From Robiginitomaculum sp. (lineage in GTDB: Bacteria; Pseudomonadota; Alphaproteobacteria; Caulobacterales; Maricaulaceae): DNA of 64,000 bases. Shown here piece by piece: positions 3,111 through 64,000 of the stretch. Under the pieces are notes generated by a model. The model was given only the letters and a program-made list of their open reading frames with translations, was not told where the DNA came from and did no database searches. The DNA lies in contig JAJFFT010000006.1 of assembly GCA_021776525.1 (NCBI GenBank), positions 639,592 to 703,591 of the forward strand, given 5' to 3'. Position 1 is the first letter of the stretch. Each line of letters starts with the position of its first letter. Made by a program: the position numbers and the translations under genes.

Positions 3111-3971
3111 CTATTCAAAAGAAATTTTTTGTCTGTCAACATTTCTTGCGAGCGAAACAAGAAGCTTTTTGGACGTAGAAATGACCGTTTTTGACATTAT
3201 GTACCAGTGCTCATTTAAACGTCTCACATCACGTTTATCTAAAGGTAAAACCATGGCTTGTGCATTTGGTCCCACGGGCGTAATGGCGTACTTTGGATGA
3301 ATAGGAATCCAAGTTCCTTTTTGATTATTATCTTCAACCTTTCCAACTTTAAAACTAAGAGAAGGTAAAATGAAACTATTGCCCGCGGGGGCAACACCAA
3401 TAATTACGCCTAAATTTTGCAAATTCTGTAGAACACTATCTGTCTGGTAAGCTCGTGCCATTTGTACGGCATTGTTTTTCATAGCCTCGTCAATTCTTAA
3501 ATTATTAGTATAGTTTTTTGCTTTTTTTGGACTGCGCCCTTTATCTATCAAAACTGCGGTGAGTTTGTTCTTAAAGTTTGCAATATCTAAGTTGTCAAAA
3601 TAAGGCTTCCAAATATCAGGATGCCGTTTGTAGGCATTATATAAATAAAATTGCCATAATTGCCTGCGTGCCCCTTGATTTAACTTTGGAGCATTACCAC
3701 TCTCCAAGATCGAGATAATTTCTCGTGTCAGTTCGCATGCCGCATGGTCAAGTTTAGAATAAAATTCACTCTCCAAAAGAGTGTCACGTTTTCCATTTTT
3801 TGCTTTTAAGGCATATAGATCTCTCAATACATTTAGCGTTTTTGGATTCCGTTCGACAGCCTCTATAAGGAGGTTATTTTTGCGCAATACCGCATTTACT
3901 AACCCATTATCTTGGCCCCAAAGGCGCATTTGCCATTGTGGAATATAATGGTGTTTTCTCGGATCAGACAT
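3111..3971 (-). CDS. DUF4238 domain protein
   Basis: The N-terminus MSDPRKHHYIPQWQMRLW is the hallmark (HHYIPQ) of DUF4238, a family of about 280-300 residues with no established function; this copy has 286. No signal peptide or membrane segment is visible. Codon use and base composition are clearly AT-richer than in acs next door, which suggests acquisition from outside. It is flanked on both sides by REP-like inverted repeats. DUF4238 genes often occur singly in variable regions and are suspected of roles in defence or mobile-element biology, but nothing here proves this. The start at 3971 is chosen because the family motif begins at once. Confidence 0.85.
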   Translation of the reverse strand: MSDPRKHHYIPQWQMRLWGQDNGLVNAVLRKNNLLIEAVERNPKTLNVLRDLYALKAKNGKRDTLLESEFYSKLDHAACELTREIISILESGNAPKLNQGARRQLWQFYLYNAYKRHPDIWKPYFDNLDIANFKNKLTAVLIDKGRSPKKAKNYTNNLRIDEAMKNNAVQMARAYQTDSVLQNLQNLGVIIGVAPAGNSFILPSLSFKVGKVEDNNQKGTWIPIHPKYAITPVGPNAQAMVLPLDKRDVRRLNEHWYIMSKTVISTSKKLLVSLARNVDRQKISFE

Positions 3972-3990
3972 GCATTACGTATATACCAAA

Positions 3991-10287: not shown

Positions 10288-10503
10288 ATGACGGTTTCAA
10301 CGACTTTGATAGTTCTGGCCCTTTCGGTGGGCCTCTTTGCGCTGGGGGCATGGCGCGACAGTCGCCCGCGCGAAGCCGGAAACCCCCGGCTGTTCAGCTG
10401 GAAGCCGGTTTATATGATCGCCCTCGTTGTGGGTATTTTGATGCTGGTGCATTTGGCCAATATGATTGGCTTTGAGACGGGCAAGGGCCGCGGCCGGTTT
10501 TAG
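10288..10503 (+). CDS. Small two-helix membrane protein of alphaproteobacterial type
   Basis: A 71-residue protein with two hydrophobic helices (about 5-22 and 42-60) linked by a basic segment rich in Arg and Pro. The pattern LGAWRDSRPREAG, then FSWKPVYM and LVHLANMIGFETG, resembles a small conserved alphaproteobacterial membrane protein of unknown function. It starts 6 bp after the GT2 stop, so it is probably cotranscribed and could assist that enzyme, though this is inference from position only. Confidence 0.7.
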   Translation: MTVSTTLIVLALSVGLFALGAWRDSRPREAGNPRLFSWKPVYMIALVVGILMLVHLANMIGFETGKGRGRF

Positions 10504-10647
10504 GTGTTACATTGCGATCTTGCGTAACGGGGTACGCTCCGGCACACTTGCGCCATAAGGCAATCATTTGAATAAGTAGCATCCGGGATGACACGCCTTA
10601 AGAATGATCGAGCATTAGAGGCCAGAAAATGACCCTTCGCCTACTGA

Positions 10648-11124
10648 TTATGGGGCCTTATGAGCTTCCAGCTCGATCTCGATCATAAATTCTGGCAGGG
10701 CAAGGCCCTTGACCTCCAGCCAGCTTCCGGTCGGGAATTGCTTGGTGTATATGGTGTTTCTGTAAGCGGACACTTCCAGGAATTTTGCCATCTGGGTGGT
10801 AAAGACGTTCTCGACGACGACATCATCGAAGCTATAGCCATAATGCGCCAGCACCTTGCCCAGATCATCATAGGCATTTTTCATCTGCTGTTCCAGATCG
10901 CCAATGGCGGTCGGATTGCCCTTGGCATCCATACTGACGGCACCCGAAATTTTGATGTCATTGCCAATTTTGACAGCATGGGTATATCCGTAGGCCTTTT
11001 CGACCTCCGGACGTAAATTGAAGTATTCTGGCGCTTCAGTCTTTGAGACTCTGCTTTGGTCCGCGCAGCCTGACAGTATCAGTAACGCGATCGCCCCCAC
11101 GTATAGTCGTGCAGAATGTTTCAT
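10648..11124 (-). CDS. RidA/YjgF-family lipoprotein lacking the catalytic arginine
   Basis: The 158-residue product has a lipoprotein signal (MKHSARLYVGAIALLILSGC, Cys at 20) followed by a full RidA/YER057c domain: VKIGNDIKISGAV, QMKNAYDDLGKVLAHYG, then FPTGSWLEVKGLALPEFMIE. True RidA enzymes are cytoplasmic 2-aminoacrylate imine deaminases with an essential Arg in a P-A-R-S-type motif. Here the aligned motif reads PTGS, so the Arg is lost and deaminase activity is unlikely. The protein is probably membrane-tethered in the periplasm, perhaps as a ligand-binding trimer. It lies 78 bp downstream of the M24 peptidase gene on the same strand and may belong to the unit that begins at the VOC gene. 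Confidence 0.85.
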   Translation of the reverse strand: MKHSARLYVGAIALLILSGCADQSRVSKTEAPEYFNLRPEVEKAYGYTHAVKIGNDIKISGAVSMDAKGNPTAIGDLEQQMKNAYDDLGKVLAHYGYSFDDVVVENVFTTQMAKFLEVSAYRNTIYTKQFPTGSWLEVKGLALPEFMIEIELEAHKAP

Positions 11125-11202
11125 TATATGCCCCCGTATTTGTGCGCAATAAACCCTATTTGGGGAAAGGGGGCAACGGCTTATAAAGCGTGTGTGCTAC
11201 TT

Positions 11203-12543
11203 TTATTTGATCAAATGAAAACGGGTTTGGCGACCATCAATATAACGCACATTTTCTCCGTCAAAAAACGCATCTTCTTCCAGCATGATGCGAATTTCCT
11301 GGTCCTCCCATTCGGGGATTGTCACCAGGGCCGATAACTCGATTGACCAGGCGGCATTTGCATTGATCGGATAATCCCCGCCGCTTTTTACACCGTCCTG
11401 TTGGTCCCACATACCAATGGTTGCCCCGGCCCCATGGCCATGAAAACCGATGGGGTGGGTGTAAACCCAGGGCTTGATACCCTCTGCAATGGCTGCGGCG
11501 CGTGTTTTGGCCAGCACCGCATTGCCGCCCATGCCGGTCTTGAAATTACTGGTCAGAATGTCCTGTAAACGATTGCCCACCGCCAGTGCGTTTTTCAGGC
11601 CGGTTGGCGCATCCTTTTCGCCGGGTCTCAGCACATAGGCATGGTGCTGGGTGTCAGAATTGAGGCCCATATAGGTGATGCCAAAATCCAGATGAATCAG
11701 GTCTCCGGGCTGGATCACATCGGCGCTGTCAGTATCAAACAGGGTCAACATGCCGGTATCGCTTTGGGCGGGGTTGTGGCGCTGTATTGCAATAGAGGGG
11801 TGAAACCATGTGGTGACGCCATGCGCCCGGATGGTATCGCGAAACCACCAGACAAGATCAGTCACCGTGGTTGTGCCGGGCGTGATGGTTTTGGATGACA
11901 GGCCCTCATAAATGATGGCGTGGGCCAGCCCGACAATATGCGGATAATACTCCATTTCCGCAGGCGTACGCCGTTCCAGCCAGCCAATGGCCAGCGCCGG
12001 GTCAAAGGTCAGGCGGCTTTGCCATTTTTGACCCAGCGTTTTGACGAGGCGCTGGTGCTGGCTGTGGGTCAGACCATCGGCCAGAGCGAAGGTGTCCGAG
12101 ACATTGACGGCAATTTTTTTAGGGTCACGTTCGGCGATGATATCGGCCAGACGTTTCCATTGATCAGGCTCAGCTTCGGGGTCCCAGGCGGCCTTGAACA
12201 CTTCACCCACCGCATAACGGCTGACCGCCAAACGCTCGACGTTCTGCCCATCGTCGTAAAACACCAAAATGGTTTGCCGCCGCGCCGACATCCAGTCAGA
12301 CGGCAACATAGTGGTCAGCACCGGATCGTCATTATATTCACGCGCCAGGACCAGCCACATATCAATGCCGCGCTCGCGCATCAAAGCCGGGACCAGCGTA
12401 TCAAGCCGGGTTTTCAGCCATTGGTCACGCAGCCCGGCGCGCTCCTGCATGGAAAAGACGGTGGGGTAGGTGCTGGTTTCTGTTGCCTTGACCGAAACGG
12501 TGGGCGCGGCCAGTAACACCATTATGCTCAGCAGGGTTTTCAT
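11203..12543 (-). CDS. Exported M24 family metallopeptidase (Xaa-Pro aminopeptidase-like)
   Basis: The 446-residue protein begins with a Sec signal peptide (cleavage probably near SVKA). A creatinase-N-like region is followed by the pita-bread domain with the five metal ligands in order: Asp in HLDFG, Asp in NSDTQH, His in GFHGHGAG, Glu in SIELSALV and Glu in IMLEEDAFF. M24 enzymes use two metal ions to remove N-terminal residues, often before proline, or act on related small substrates. Export to the periplasm is unusual for PepP itself but known for this bacterial subgroup. It starts 20 bp after the GNAT stop with an AAGG ribosome site and so is probably in the SoxR-box operon. Confidence 0.88.
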   Translation of the reverse strand: MKTLLSIMVLLAAPTVSVKATETSTYPTVFSMQERAGLRDQWLKTRLDTLVPALMRERGIDMWLVLAREYNDDPVLTTMLPSDWMSARRQTILVFYDDGQNVERLAVSRYAVGEVFKAAWDPEAEPDQWKRLADIIAERDPKKIAVNVSDTFALADGLTHSQHQRLVKTLGQKWQSRLTFDPALAIGWLERRTPAEMEYYPHIVGLAHAIIYEGLSSKTITPGTTTVTDLVWWFRDTIRAHGVTTWFHPSIAIQRHNPAQSDTGMLTLFDTDSADVIQPGDLIHLDFGITYMGLNSDTQHHAYVLRPGEKDAPTGLKNALAVGNRLQDILTSNFKTGMGGNAVLAKTRAAAIAEGIKPWVYTHPIGFHGHGAGATIGMWDQQDGVKSGGDYPINANAAWSIELSALVTIPEWEDQEIRIMLEEDAFFDGENVRYIDGRQTRFHLIK

Positions 12544-12563
12544 TATGCGCCTTGTTTCTGTTT

Positions 12564-13022
12564 CTACAGGTCTACCGTCATGAAACAGCTTAGAGGGTCA
12601 AGACGGTAATCGGCAAATGGATTGCAATATTCAAACCCGTAACGACGATAGAGGGCCTGCGCTGGGGCGAATTCGTCCTGGGTTCCGGTTTCCAGACTAA
12701 GCCGTCTATAGGATCGCTGGCGCGCTGTTTCGATGATGTGCCCTAACAAGCGCGAAGCAACGCCTTTTCTGTGGTGGCTTTTATGGGTGCGCATGGATTT
12801 TATTTCTCCGTGGGAGCTATTGATCTCCTTTAAGGCACCACACCCCAATAAATGCCCGTTCTGCCGTGCCACCCAAAACGTCATGTCCGGGGCTTTCAAG
12901 GCTTCCAGACCCAGCGTGTGATTGCTTTCGGGCGGTGAAATGCCTGCCATATCATGCAAATGCGCCGTAACGAGCGCCACCACATCTGGTTTGCCAAGGT
13001 CTTCGTTAATGATGTGGATCAC
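12564..13022 (-). CDS. GNAT family N-acetyltransferase
   Basis: A 152-residue single-domain GNAT. Acetyl-CoA binding motif A is HRKGVASRLLGHIIETAR, and the C-terminal part has ALYRRYGFEYC, as in typical small-molecule or amino-group acetyltransferases (YsnE-like). Its start overlaps the stop of the VOC gene (ATGA), so translation is coupled. Together with that gene it lies downstream of the SoxR-type promoter, which suggests a role in modifying a redox-active or toxic compound; the actual substrate cannot be told. Confidence 0.87.
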   Translation of the reverse strand: MIHIINEDLGKPDVVALVTAHLHDMAGISPPESNHTLGLEALKAPDMTFWVARQNGHLLGCGALKEINSSHGEIKSMRTHKSHHRKGVASRLLGHIIETARQRSYRRLSLETGTQDEFAPAQALYRRYGFEYCNPFADYRLDPLSCFMTVDL

Positions 13023-13477
13023 TTCATCAGGCTTCCGTTTTCAGACATCTTTCCCAACAGTGTAAAAAAACTTTGCCGCCATGGATAGGTCTTGGGTTGA
13101 TAACTGACCACTTCAAACTCAATCCCATCAGAATCGCGAAAGTAAAACCGTCGGCCCGGCTCATATTCTCCAAAATTATAGGTTTCAAACCCGGCTCTGT
13201 TGACTCTGCGCTCGACCTTTTCCAGATCATCAACCACAACCCCCACATGGTTCAGACCTTTGGCGTGTTTGCCTTCGCCCCTTTCTGGTTGTGATGGTGA
13301 ACCTTTAGAATAAACCGCAAGGTATGAGTTCTTTCCACCGACATGAACGGTATGCCCGCTGTTTGTGGCTTTGCCTGACCATCGGATGGTCCAACCGAAC
13401 AAGGCGCTCAGGCGCTCAGCGGTTTTGCCCGGGTTACTGACGGTGATGTTGATATGTTCCAATATGCCTGCGGTCAT
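13019..13477 (-). CDS. VOC (glyoxalase/bleomycin-resistance) family protein
   Basis: The 152-residue protein has one vicinal-oxygen-chelate module made of two beta-alpha-beta-beta-beta units. The first begins ILEHINITVSNP, the second LNHVGVVVDDL, and GIEFEVVSYQP provides the usual metal-ligand Glu. VOC proteins isomerise, cleave or simply sequester small molecules. It is the first gene after the SoxR box, with the -10 element 46 bp upstream of the start codon. It is therefore the most probable direct SoxR target here, in the position that soxS holds in enteric bacteria. Confidence 0.9.
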   Translation of the reverse strand: MTAGILEHINITVSNPGKTAERLSALFGWTIRWSGKATNSGHTVHVGGKNSYLAVYSKGSPSQPERGEGKHAKGLNHVGVVVDDLEKVERRVNRAGFETYNFGEYEPGRRFYFRDSDGIEFEVVSYQPKTYPWRQSFFTLLGKMSENGSLMK

Positions 13478-13522
13478 AATCTTTTCCTGTTTTTTATTGT
13501 GACGTATTTTCTCACTTGCCTC

Positions 13523-13553
13523 AGCCTACGACCTCAAGTTAACTTGAGGTCAA
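13523..13553 (-). promoter_or_regulatory. MerR-type promoter with 19-bp spacer, minus strand
   Basis: Read on the minus strand, TTGACC (13553-13548) and TAGGCT (13528-13523) are separated by exactly 19 bp. This over-long spacer is the hallmark of promoters activated by MerR-family twisters such as SoxR. The SoxR palindrome lies within the spacer and overlaps the -35 element. The promoter points towards the VOC-GNAT genes. No equally good pair is seen on the plus strand, so soxR itself may use an overlapping or weaker promoter and could be autorepressed. Confidence 0.8.
13531..13550. promoter_or_regulatory. SoxR box
   Basis: A perfect 20-bp palindrome, ACCTCAAGTTAACTTGAGGT. Its central 18 bp are the same as the SoxR operator of the Escherichia coli soxS promoter as I know it (CCTCAAGTTAACTTGAGG). 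It lies in the 98-bp gap between soxR and the divergent VOC gene. Confidence 0.93.
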
Positions 13554-13575
13554 GAGGTTTTTTCAGGAGGCGTAT

Positions 13576-14034
13576 ATGCCCTTGCCACGCAAGGTTTTTT
13601 TGATCGGAAAAGTTGCGGCCAGAACCGGAATATCGGTTTCGGCCATTCGTCATTACGAGGCCGAGGGGCTTATAAAGTCCATGCGGGACCAAGGTGGTCG
13701 GCGGGTTTTCGCTCCGGCTGATATTCGTCGCATATCCTTTATCATCATCACCCAGAAACTGGGGTTCTCACTTAAGGAAATTCGCGCAGAGCTTGGCTTG
13801 CTGCCAGATGGACGCACGCCAACAAAGCGGGATTGGGAACGCATGAGCCGCAGCTTTGGGCATAAAATCGATGACCGTATCAAGACGTTGGAACTGTTGA
13901 GGGAAAAGCTCACCGGCTGCATCGGGTGCGGGTGTTTGTCCTTGAAAAAATGCGCGCTTTATAACACCAAAGACATTGCCGGCCAGCGCGGTTCTGGCCC
14001 GCGATATTTGATGGGAGACAAGCCTGCAACTTGA
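13576..14034 (+). CDS. soxR: Redox-sensing MerR-family activator SoxR
   Basis: The 152-residue protein has the MerR winged helix at the N-terminus (VAARTGISVSAIRHYEAEGL), a dimerisation helix (about 85-120) and the [2Fe-2S] cluster motif C-I-G-C-G-C-x5-C near residues 117-128. This CxxCxCx5C spacing is diagnostic for SoxR. The protein senses redox-cycling compounds by oxidation of its cluster and then activates a promoter with a long spacer. A strong ribosome site (CAGGAGG, 13564-13570) supports the ATG at 13576. The SoxR box lies just upstream. No soxS gene is present, as expected outside enteric bacteria, so SoxR probably acts directly on the divergent operon. Confidence 0.96.
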   Translation: MPLPRKVFLIGKVAARTGISVSAIRHYEAEGLIKSMRDQGGRRVFAPADIRRISFIIITQKLGFSLKEIRAELGLLPDGRTPTKRDWERMSRSFGHKIDDRIKTLELLREKLTGCIGCGCLSLKKCALYNTKDIAGQRGSGPRYLMGDKPAT

Positions 14035-14173
14035 CGTATGTCAGGCGGGGTGGGATATAAGACCATCTTGAGGAGAAAGACTATGAACAAGCGTAACCGC
14101 TCGTAATCGGTAAAGACGAAACGAGGGCAAACCCACGCCCAAAATTTCTTTTCTCTTTTCAGGACAATCAAAA

Positions 14174-14953
14174 ATGACACGACTGACAGGCAAGACATGC
14201 CTTGTAACCGGTGCCGCGCGCGGTATTGGCGAGGCCATCGCATGCGCATTCATCAAAGAGGGTGCAAAGGTATATGTGACCGATATTGAAGTCGCCTCCG
14301 GCCAAAAAACCGCGCAAAACCTCGGTGCGGCTTTTCTCAAACTGGATGTGGCCAGTGAAACCGACTGGGCACAAATCGCCAAAGCCGTTCCGAAACTGGA
14401 TGTGCTGGTCAATAATGCCGGCATTACTGGCTTTGAAGACGGTGTTGTGGCGCATGATCCCGAACATGCGTCTTTGGCCGACTGGCGGGCTGTGCATGCG
14501 GTGAATACCGACGGCACGTTTTTGGGTTGCCGCTATGGCATTGCCGCCATGCGGGGTCGCGGGGCCGGTGCGATCATCAATATTTCCTCGCGCTCTGGCA
14601 TGGTCGGTATACCGGGGGCAGCGGCTTATGCTGCATCCAAGGCGGCGATCCGAAATCACAGCAAAACCGTGGCGCTTTATTGCGCACAAAACGGCCTCAA
14701 TATCCGCTGTAACTCCATCCATCCGGCGGCAATCCTCACCCCGATGTGGGAGCCTATGCTGGGCGATGGCCCGGACCGTGCGGCCCGCATGAAAGCGTTT
14801 GTCGCGGAGACACCAATGCAGCGTTTTGGCACGGCGTGCGAGGTGGCGGCACTGGCGGTTTTGCTGGCCTCGGACGAGGCGGCCTATATCACCGGGTCGG
14901 AGCTGACCATTGATGGCGGCTTGCTTGCTGGATCGGCGGCGACACCCGGCTAA
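14174..14953 (+). CDS. Short-chain dehydrogenase/reductase
   Basis: A 259-residue classical SDR. It shows the nucleotide-binding TGAARGIG (about 12-19), NNAG, the catalytic Ser in NISSRSG, YAASK with the catalytic Tyr and Lys, and the C-terminal [11 protein letters not shown]. Asp in YVTDIE at the end of the second strand favours NAD(H) over NADP(H). The substrate is probably an alcohol or ketone, possibly a steroid-like one, but cannot be fixed. The gene is transcribed alone and ends before a strong hairpin terminator. Confidence 0.92.
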
Positions 14954-63832: not shown

Positions 63833-64000
63833 CAATTTGAGAGTTTGATCCTGGCTCAGAACGAACGCTGGCGGCAGGCTTAACACATGCAAGTCGAACG
63901 CCCTCTTCGGAGGGAGTGGCAGACGGGTGAGTAACGCGTGGGAAACTACCCTGTAGTTCGGAATAATCCATGGAAACGTGGCCTAATACCGTATACGCCC
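63833..64000 (+). rRNA. rrs: 16S ribosomal RNA (5' end, partial)
   Basis: GAGTTTGATCCTGGCTCAG begins at 63841, which corresponds to E. coli position 9, so the mature end is near 63833. The following AACGAACGCTGGCGGCAGGC and GACGGGTGAGTAACGCGTGG are universal or alphaproteobacterial segments. The gene continues beyond the window. Confidence 0.98.

Follow-up and report, generated by a model that had tools for sequence, protein, structure and literature searches.

A conserved VOC protein as a likely target of SoxR in Robiginitomaculum and other Alphaproteobacteria

In a stretch of 64,000 nucleotides from Robiginitomaculum sp. (GenBank assembly GCA_021776525.1, contig JAJFFT010000006.1, positions 639,592 to 703,591 of the forward strand; the whole stretch is referred to as the window), a soxR gene is the divergent neighbour of a gene for a VOC protein, and the latter is followed on its own strand by genes for a GNAT acetyltransferase, an M24-family peptidase-like protein and a RidA-like protein. 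The question that this locus raises is which of these genes SoxR controls and for what purpose. An earlier note on this DNA had proposed that SoxR drives all four. Comparison of genome sequences indicates instead that the conserved unit is soxR, its box and the VOC gene and not the four-gene set, and we consider it likely that SoxR activates the VOC gene.

The soxR gene (13576..14034, plus strand) encodes a redox-sensing activator of the MerR family of 152 amino acids (aa), which scores 170.2 bits against TIGR01950 (curated cut-off 116.9) and whose closest relative of solved structure is E. coli SoxR (PDB 2zhg, E 2.7e-33). From residue 115 it reads CIGCGCLSLKKC, which is the CX2CXCX5C cluster motif described for SoxR in PMC4146615 (all papers are cited here by accession), and the intact cysteine motif that the earlier note had read in this gene is thereby borne out. 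The SoxR box is GACCTCAAGTTAACTTGAGGTC at 13530..13551, a palindrome that is perfect over 22 bp; its perfection had been recognized, whereas the length of 20 bp assigned to it was one base too short on each side. The 18-bp core (13532..13549) is identical, letter for letter, to the SoxR box that PMC4411124 gives for E. coli, as had been claimed for the enteric operator. On the minus strand, a promoter facing the VOC gene (13523..13553) consists of TTGACC at 13553-13548, a 19-bp spacer and TAGGCT at 13528-13523, in agreement with the earlier description, and the box lies between the -35 and -10 elements, which is the architecture of a SoxR-activated promoter according to PMC4411124. Allowing up to 3 mismatches, the window holds one match to the palindrome versus a mean of 0.02 in shuffled sequences (2 of 100 shuffles had one), and a search of the 2.96-Mb genome, which had been suggested as a check, found the palindrome beside soxR as the sole place within 3 mismatches.

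The pair was then sought in 61 genomes, comprising its own and those of relatives from the genus, family and order. SoxR was counted above the TIGR01950 cut-off and VOC above 100 bits; VOC matches were present in 30 genomes, but in 13 of them they stayed below 100 bits and were left out, being regarded as fragments or as VOC proteins of another kind. SoxR is found in 25/61 genomes and VOC in 17/61, and all 17 genomes with VOC have SoxR, the two genes being divergent neighbours by their coordinates in 16 of them. The exception, G030, has its VOC gene away from soxR, yet a box lies about 130 bp ahead of the matched VOC stretch. G016 was not counted as a pair, having a 50-residue VOC stretch at a contig end and soxR near the end of another contig. 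The strict box pattern occurs in 28/61 genomes, including every one of the 25 with SoxR, where it always stands beside soxR; four genomes (G024, G030, G037 and G041) carry a second match. Pairwise comparison of four congeners (G000, which is the genome of the window, G003, G004 and G017) shows full agreement over the 28 promoter columns (six pairs, 168/168), versus 171/407 for the rest of the intergenic region, and in the last three genomes the promoter differs from that of the window only in the final letters of the -10 hexamer. Relatives that have both genes but have lost the palindrome, which would have spoken against the proposal, were looked for and the palindrome was found to be kept; the pair with its box is conserved far beyond the genus.

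A wider sample of 385 genomes from the class, which shares G000 and G037 with the relatives and in which up to 10 candidates per genome were scored in the SoxR and VOC searches, gave SoxR in 31 and VOC in 14 genomes, and all 14 lie within the 31 (hypergeometric value 1.9e-17, which ignores shared ancestry). By coordinates, 12 of the 14 pairs are divergent neighbours; in G325 the genes lie apart and in G296 they are tail to tail. In this last locus (L234, C173:1179-2117) the box is ahead of VOC and not of soxR.

To these we added the best 80 of 579 VOC loci from a scan of species genomes, hence the closest relatives of the VOC gene, among whose carriers are Kordiimonas, Roseibium, Pseudovibrio and Thalassospira; several flanks are shortened by contig ends. 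soxR adjoins VOC in 68 of these 80 loci. Within 400 nt before VOC, 75 loci have at least 16 of the 22 box letters and a further one has 15; among 2536 equally long control windows from the same loci, 15 letters are reached seven times and never exceeded. L126 has a strict box farther upstream of VOC and L079 an 18-of-22 box, bringing the total to 78/80. Of the 12 loci without an adjacent soxR, ten belong to genomes with SoxR elsewhere and all ten keep the box, whereas the other two (L113 and L116) have no box, and no SoxR was found in their genomes at E <= 1e-30. The box thus tracks the joint presence of VOC and SoxR and not mere adjacency. In six of the ten genomes with a distant SoxR (L204 and L206-L210), the neighbour of soxR is an FMN-reductase-like gene (Pfam covered L204 and L206), and the box is found there with at least 16 letters in five of the six, L209 being the exception. 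Two further features of these loci were seen: in L079 an open reading frame (ORF) of 106 aa (3653-3973) separates the box from VOC, and in Thalassospira lucentensis HF2 (L096:4380-4855) the VOC gene is followed by three partial copies of its 3' part, arranged in tandem.

What SoxR boxes face where VOC is not beside soxR was also inspected. Nine of the 25 relatives with SoxR are of this kind, and in six a target could be assigned: arylamine N-acetyltransferases (G020, G054), questin-oxidase-like proteins (G021, G029, G031) and an FMN reductase (G026); none was assigned in G016 (contig end) or in G030 and G048 (none clear). In the class, 18/31 SoxR genomes have no VOC beside soxR; 16 of these loci were examined (G221 and G325 being left aside) and 12 gave a target. 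These are MFS pumps (G155, G176, G280), HlyD-type adaptors (G099, G241), DoxX proteins (G093, and G318 by sequence likeness only), an ABM monooxygenase (G100), an alpha/beta hydrolase (G206), a metallo-beta-lactamase-fold protein (G218), a different VOC protein (G244) and a rubredoxin-domain protein (G183), with no target assigned in G150, G194, G324 and G375. Second boxes are present in G037 and G041, and that of G037 precedes a YycE-like VOC gene. Small-molecule enzymes and exporters as alternative targets fit the direct SoxR control described in PMC4146615.

The VOC gene (13019..13477, minus strand) encodes a protein of 152 aa that scores 34.4 bits against PF00903 (cut-off 20.6), and its structure model adopts the VOC fold; profile and fold both place it in the VOC superfamily. 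Together with the soxR pairing and the box conservation, this makes it a likely conserved SoxR target. In an alignment of 95 members (L073 yielded no VOC sequence, and L069 was omitted as it is the same genome as G017), His8 and His77 are kept in 95/95 and Glu122 in 94/95. These residues align with the His, His and Glu of FosX-type fosfomycin resistance proteins, which share the VOC fold but only about 18-22% identity with the protein; FosX hydrolyses epoxides. As we take the FosX residues to be its metal ligands, the His8-His77-Glu122 triad predicts, from the alignment, that the VOC protein is a metalloenzyme. A GloA-type glyoxalase was considered and rejected, the score against NF050074 being 21.5 bits, far under the cut-off of 165. 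It could also be supposed that the protein acts in a glyoxalase-like manner on damage products such as reactive dicarbonyls or electrophile-thiol adducts, and not on the inducer; this seems to us quite improbable, both from that low score and since 94/95 members have Ala at position 54, presumably where glyoxalase I has its fourth metal ligand.

On this basis, the reading that we favour, and hold to be probable, is that oxidised SoxR activates the VOC gene, whose predicted product is a metal-dependent enzyme that would modify redox-cycling compounds. A redox-active compound would oxidise the [2Fe-2S] cluster of SoxR, which would then distort the over-long promoter with its 19-bp spacer and so let RNA polymerase begin transcription, leading to synthesis of VOC, probably with GNAT in the species of the window. 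The triad is predicted to hold Fe or Mn and the pocket to accept a compound resembling a quinone, phenazine or hydroquinone, with oxygenation or ring opening as the predicted chemistry. Activation by oxidised SoxR is suggested by analogy, because the layout equals that of soxR-mfsA in Stenotrophomonas maltophilia, where the oxidised form of SoxR switches on its target across a 19-bp spacer and soxR is repressed by its own product (PMC4411124). Since the end of the box lies 24 nt ahead of the soxR start, SoxR may here also repress its own gene, as it does in Stenotrophomonas (PMC4411124). That VOC modifies the inducing compound itself is suggested by the other box targets, the VOC fold and the triad.

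Several observations weigh against this reading, some of which concern the box and others the protein. The strict pattern occurs in 54/385 class genomes (backwards-read control, 27/385), and these are 30/354 genomes without SoxR versus 24/31 with SoxR; among the relatives it is present in 3/36 genomes without SoxR over the cut-off (G013, G022, G044), the backwards control matching 2/61 (G006, G024). In the genome of the window, the backwards-read control also has one place within 3 mismatches, and we therefore put weight on the zero-mismatch match beside soxR and on its conservation. The box is not exclusive to SoxR either, as it adjoins MerR-type genes below the SoxR cut-off in G061, G101, G227 and G276, so that the palindrome alone is no proof of SoxR. 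These sites (G276 C7:17782-18169, G061 C113:102099-102472, G101 C1:609835-610220 and G227 C1:1738279-1738666) have at the box a methyltransferase gene in G276, an MFS gene in G061 and a TPMT-like methyltransferase gene in G101. With such sites on record and seven MerR-domain matches in the genome of the window, another MerR-family regulator acting at the window box might be imagined, but we regard this as very improbable: the window box adjoins soxR itself, and VOC lacks the box in both genomes where no SoxR was found and keeps it in all ten where SoxR is encoded elsewhere.

As for the protein, the structure model has intermediate confidence (mean pLDDT 78.4), the metal-triad assignment rests on the alignment and on the presumed ligand roles in FosX, and in the fold comparison drug binders and enzymes are about equally good matches to VOC. 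TnmS1-3 and the bleomycin- and zorbamycin-binding proteins are among these matches and the VOC family has many invariant aromatic residues, so one may ask if VOC is a non-catalytic binder, induced by SoxR to hold redox-active antibiotics and comparable to EhpR, which holds griseoluteic acid, the phenazine being bound through aromatic stacking (PMC3175449). We think this unlikely, because the EhpR site is reported to be devoid of the residues used by related enzymes (PMC3175449), while His8, His77 and Glu122 are conserved here, although a conserved triad alone is no proof of catalysis. EhpR resembles the present case in the glyoxalase/bleomycin-resistance fold and would do so in having a redox-active antibiotic as ligand and a role in self-protection, but its site has no catalytic residues, and the text of PMC3175449 contains 0 occurrences of SoxR. 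A VOC enzyme proper, ChaP of chartreusin biosynthesis (PMC12281474), is biosynthetic and shares 16-19% identity with the VOC model.

Among SoxR systems, the closest parallel is that of S. maltophilia, in which the target is likewise divergent and the box, near the soxR start, lies within the 19-bp spacer that separates -35 from -10, but the target is an MFS pump and the box has only 14 of 18 letters of the E. coli type (PMC4411124). The earlier note had stated that SoxR outside enterics acts directly on small regulons for redox-active compounds, and PMC4146615 agrees, with redox-active metabolites as the concern of these regulons and transporters and small-molecule enzymes under direct control. 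The regulons of Pseudomonas aeruginosa and Streptomyces coelicolor resemble the present case in being small and direct, made of such genes and free of soxS (PMC4146615); what differs is that section 3 of that paper names no VOC target, whereas here one VOC recurs across many genera.

The three genes that follow VOC lie on the minus strand: GNAT (12564..13022, PF00583), which overlaps VOC by 4 nt, then, after gaps of 20 nt and 78 nt, the M24-family peptidase-like gene (11203..12543, PF00557) and the RidA-like gene (10648..11124, PF01042), an accessory in our view. Their common strand and close spacing, and the lack of any terminator-like minus-strand site found in 10400-14300, would allow a single operon of VOC, GNAT, M24 and RidA driven by SoxR, with a joint task in detoxification or compound modification. 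GNAT follows VOC also in G017 (64% identity) and RidA does so in G004, where the contig ends inside RidA. The full set, however, is found together only in the window. Neither GNAT nor RidA follows VOC in G003, M24 matched 0/17 other genomes of the genus at E <= 1e-40 (several of these are incomplete), RidA has matches in 2/17 congeners, with only that of G004 beside VOC, and among the 80 named loci GNAT is near VOC only in L069, the same genome as G017, while M24 and RidA at 60 bits or more are near it in none. We thus rejected the four-gene set as a conserved regulatory unit, and since GNAT, M24 and RidA rarely or never recur beside VOC, the unit is that of soxR, box and VOC. Of the proposal that SoxR drives all four genes, the conserved box and promoter facing VOC stand, whereas GNAT, M24 and RidA do not form a conserved unit with it. 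A joint SoxR-driven operon with a shared task is in our judgement doubtful, although co-transcription of the four genes in this species is possible from their arrangement; GNAT may be a local partner of VOC, whereas the M24 and RidA genes seem to be local additions, possibly on the same transcript, outside the core targets.

On the other side, an SDR-family gene (14174..14953, plus strand; PF13561 and PF00106) lies 3' of soxR in the same direction, as it does in G003, G004 and G017. The gap between them (14035-14173) holds a leader that is conserved in four congeners, with GAGGAG, a tiny ORF, a GGGC...GCCC element and a pyrimidine tract ahead of the SDR start; the ORF reads MNKRNRS in the window and has other short endings in relatives. 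The predicted RNA fold of the gap is no better than that of shuffled sequences (z -1.21). An Rfam scan of the window at gathering thresholds gave one tRNA and one rRNA, the latter being the start of a 16S rRNA gene at 63833-64000, truncated by the window end.

Direct SoxR regulation outside enterics is known, and what is added here is a widespread family of VOC targets. A SoxR-VOC target was not found in the open-licence literature, including the available text of PMC7019866, PMC4219479 and PMC13210998, where no SoxR-VOC pair appears; a 176-genome survey of SoxR targets, cited by PMC4146615, fell outside this search and may already list VOC genes, so the absence is claimed only for the open-licence literature searched. 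More tentatively, and with less than even expectation that it holds, a one-enzyme SoxR regulon could be old in Alphaproteobacteria, with VOC metalloenzymes oxidatively opening redox-active aromatic antibiotics such as quinones or phenazines, so that sensing and destruction form one self-contained unit, and with other lineages substituting questin-oxidase-like, arylamine acetyltransferase or FMN reductase enzymes at the same box. That the VOC family keeps its box with soxR adjacent or distant, and is without it in the two genomes where SoxR was not found, provides a strong functional clue: as the box follows the presence of SoxR, the VOC substrate should be, or derive from, a compound that oxidises SoxR. 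The named carriers with strain designations in Kordiimonas, Roseibium, Pseudovibrio and Thalassospira make this idea directly testable and, if it is true, the VOC protein would be a possible enzyme for the destruction of redox-cycling antibiotics or dyes.
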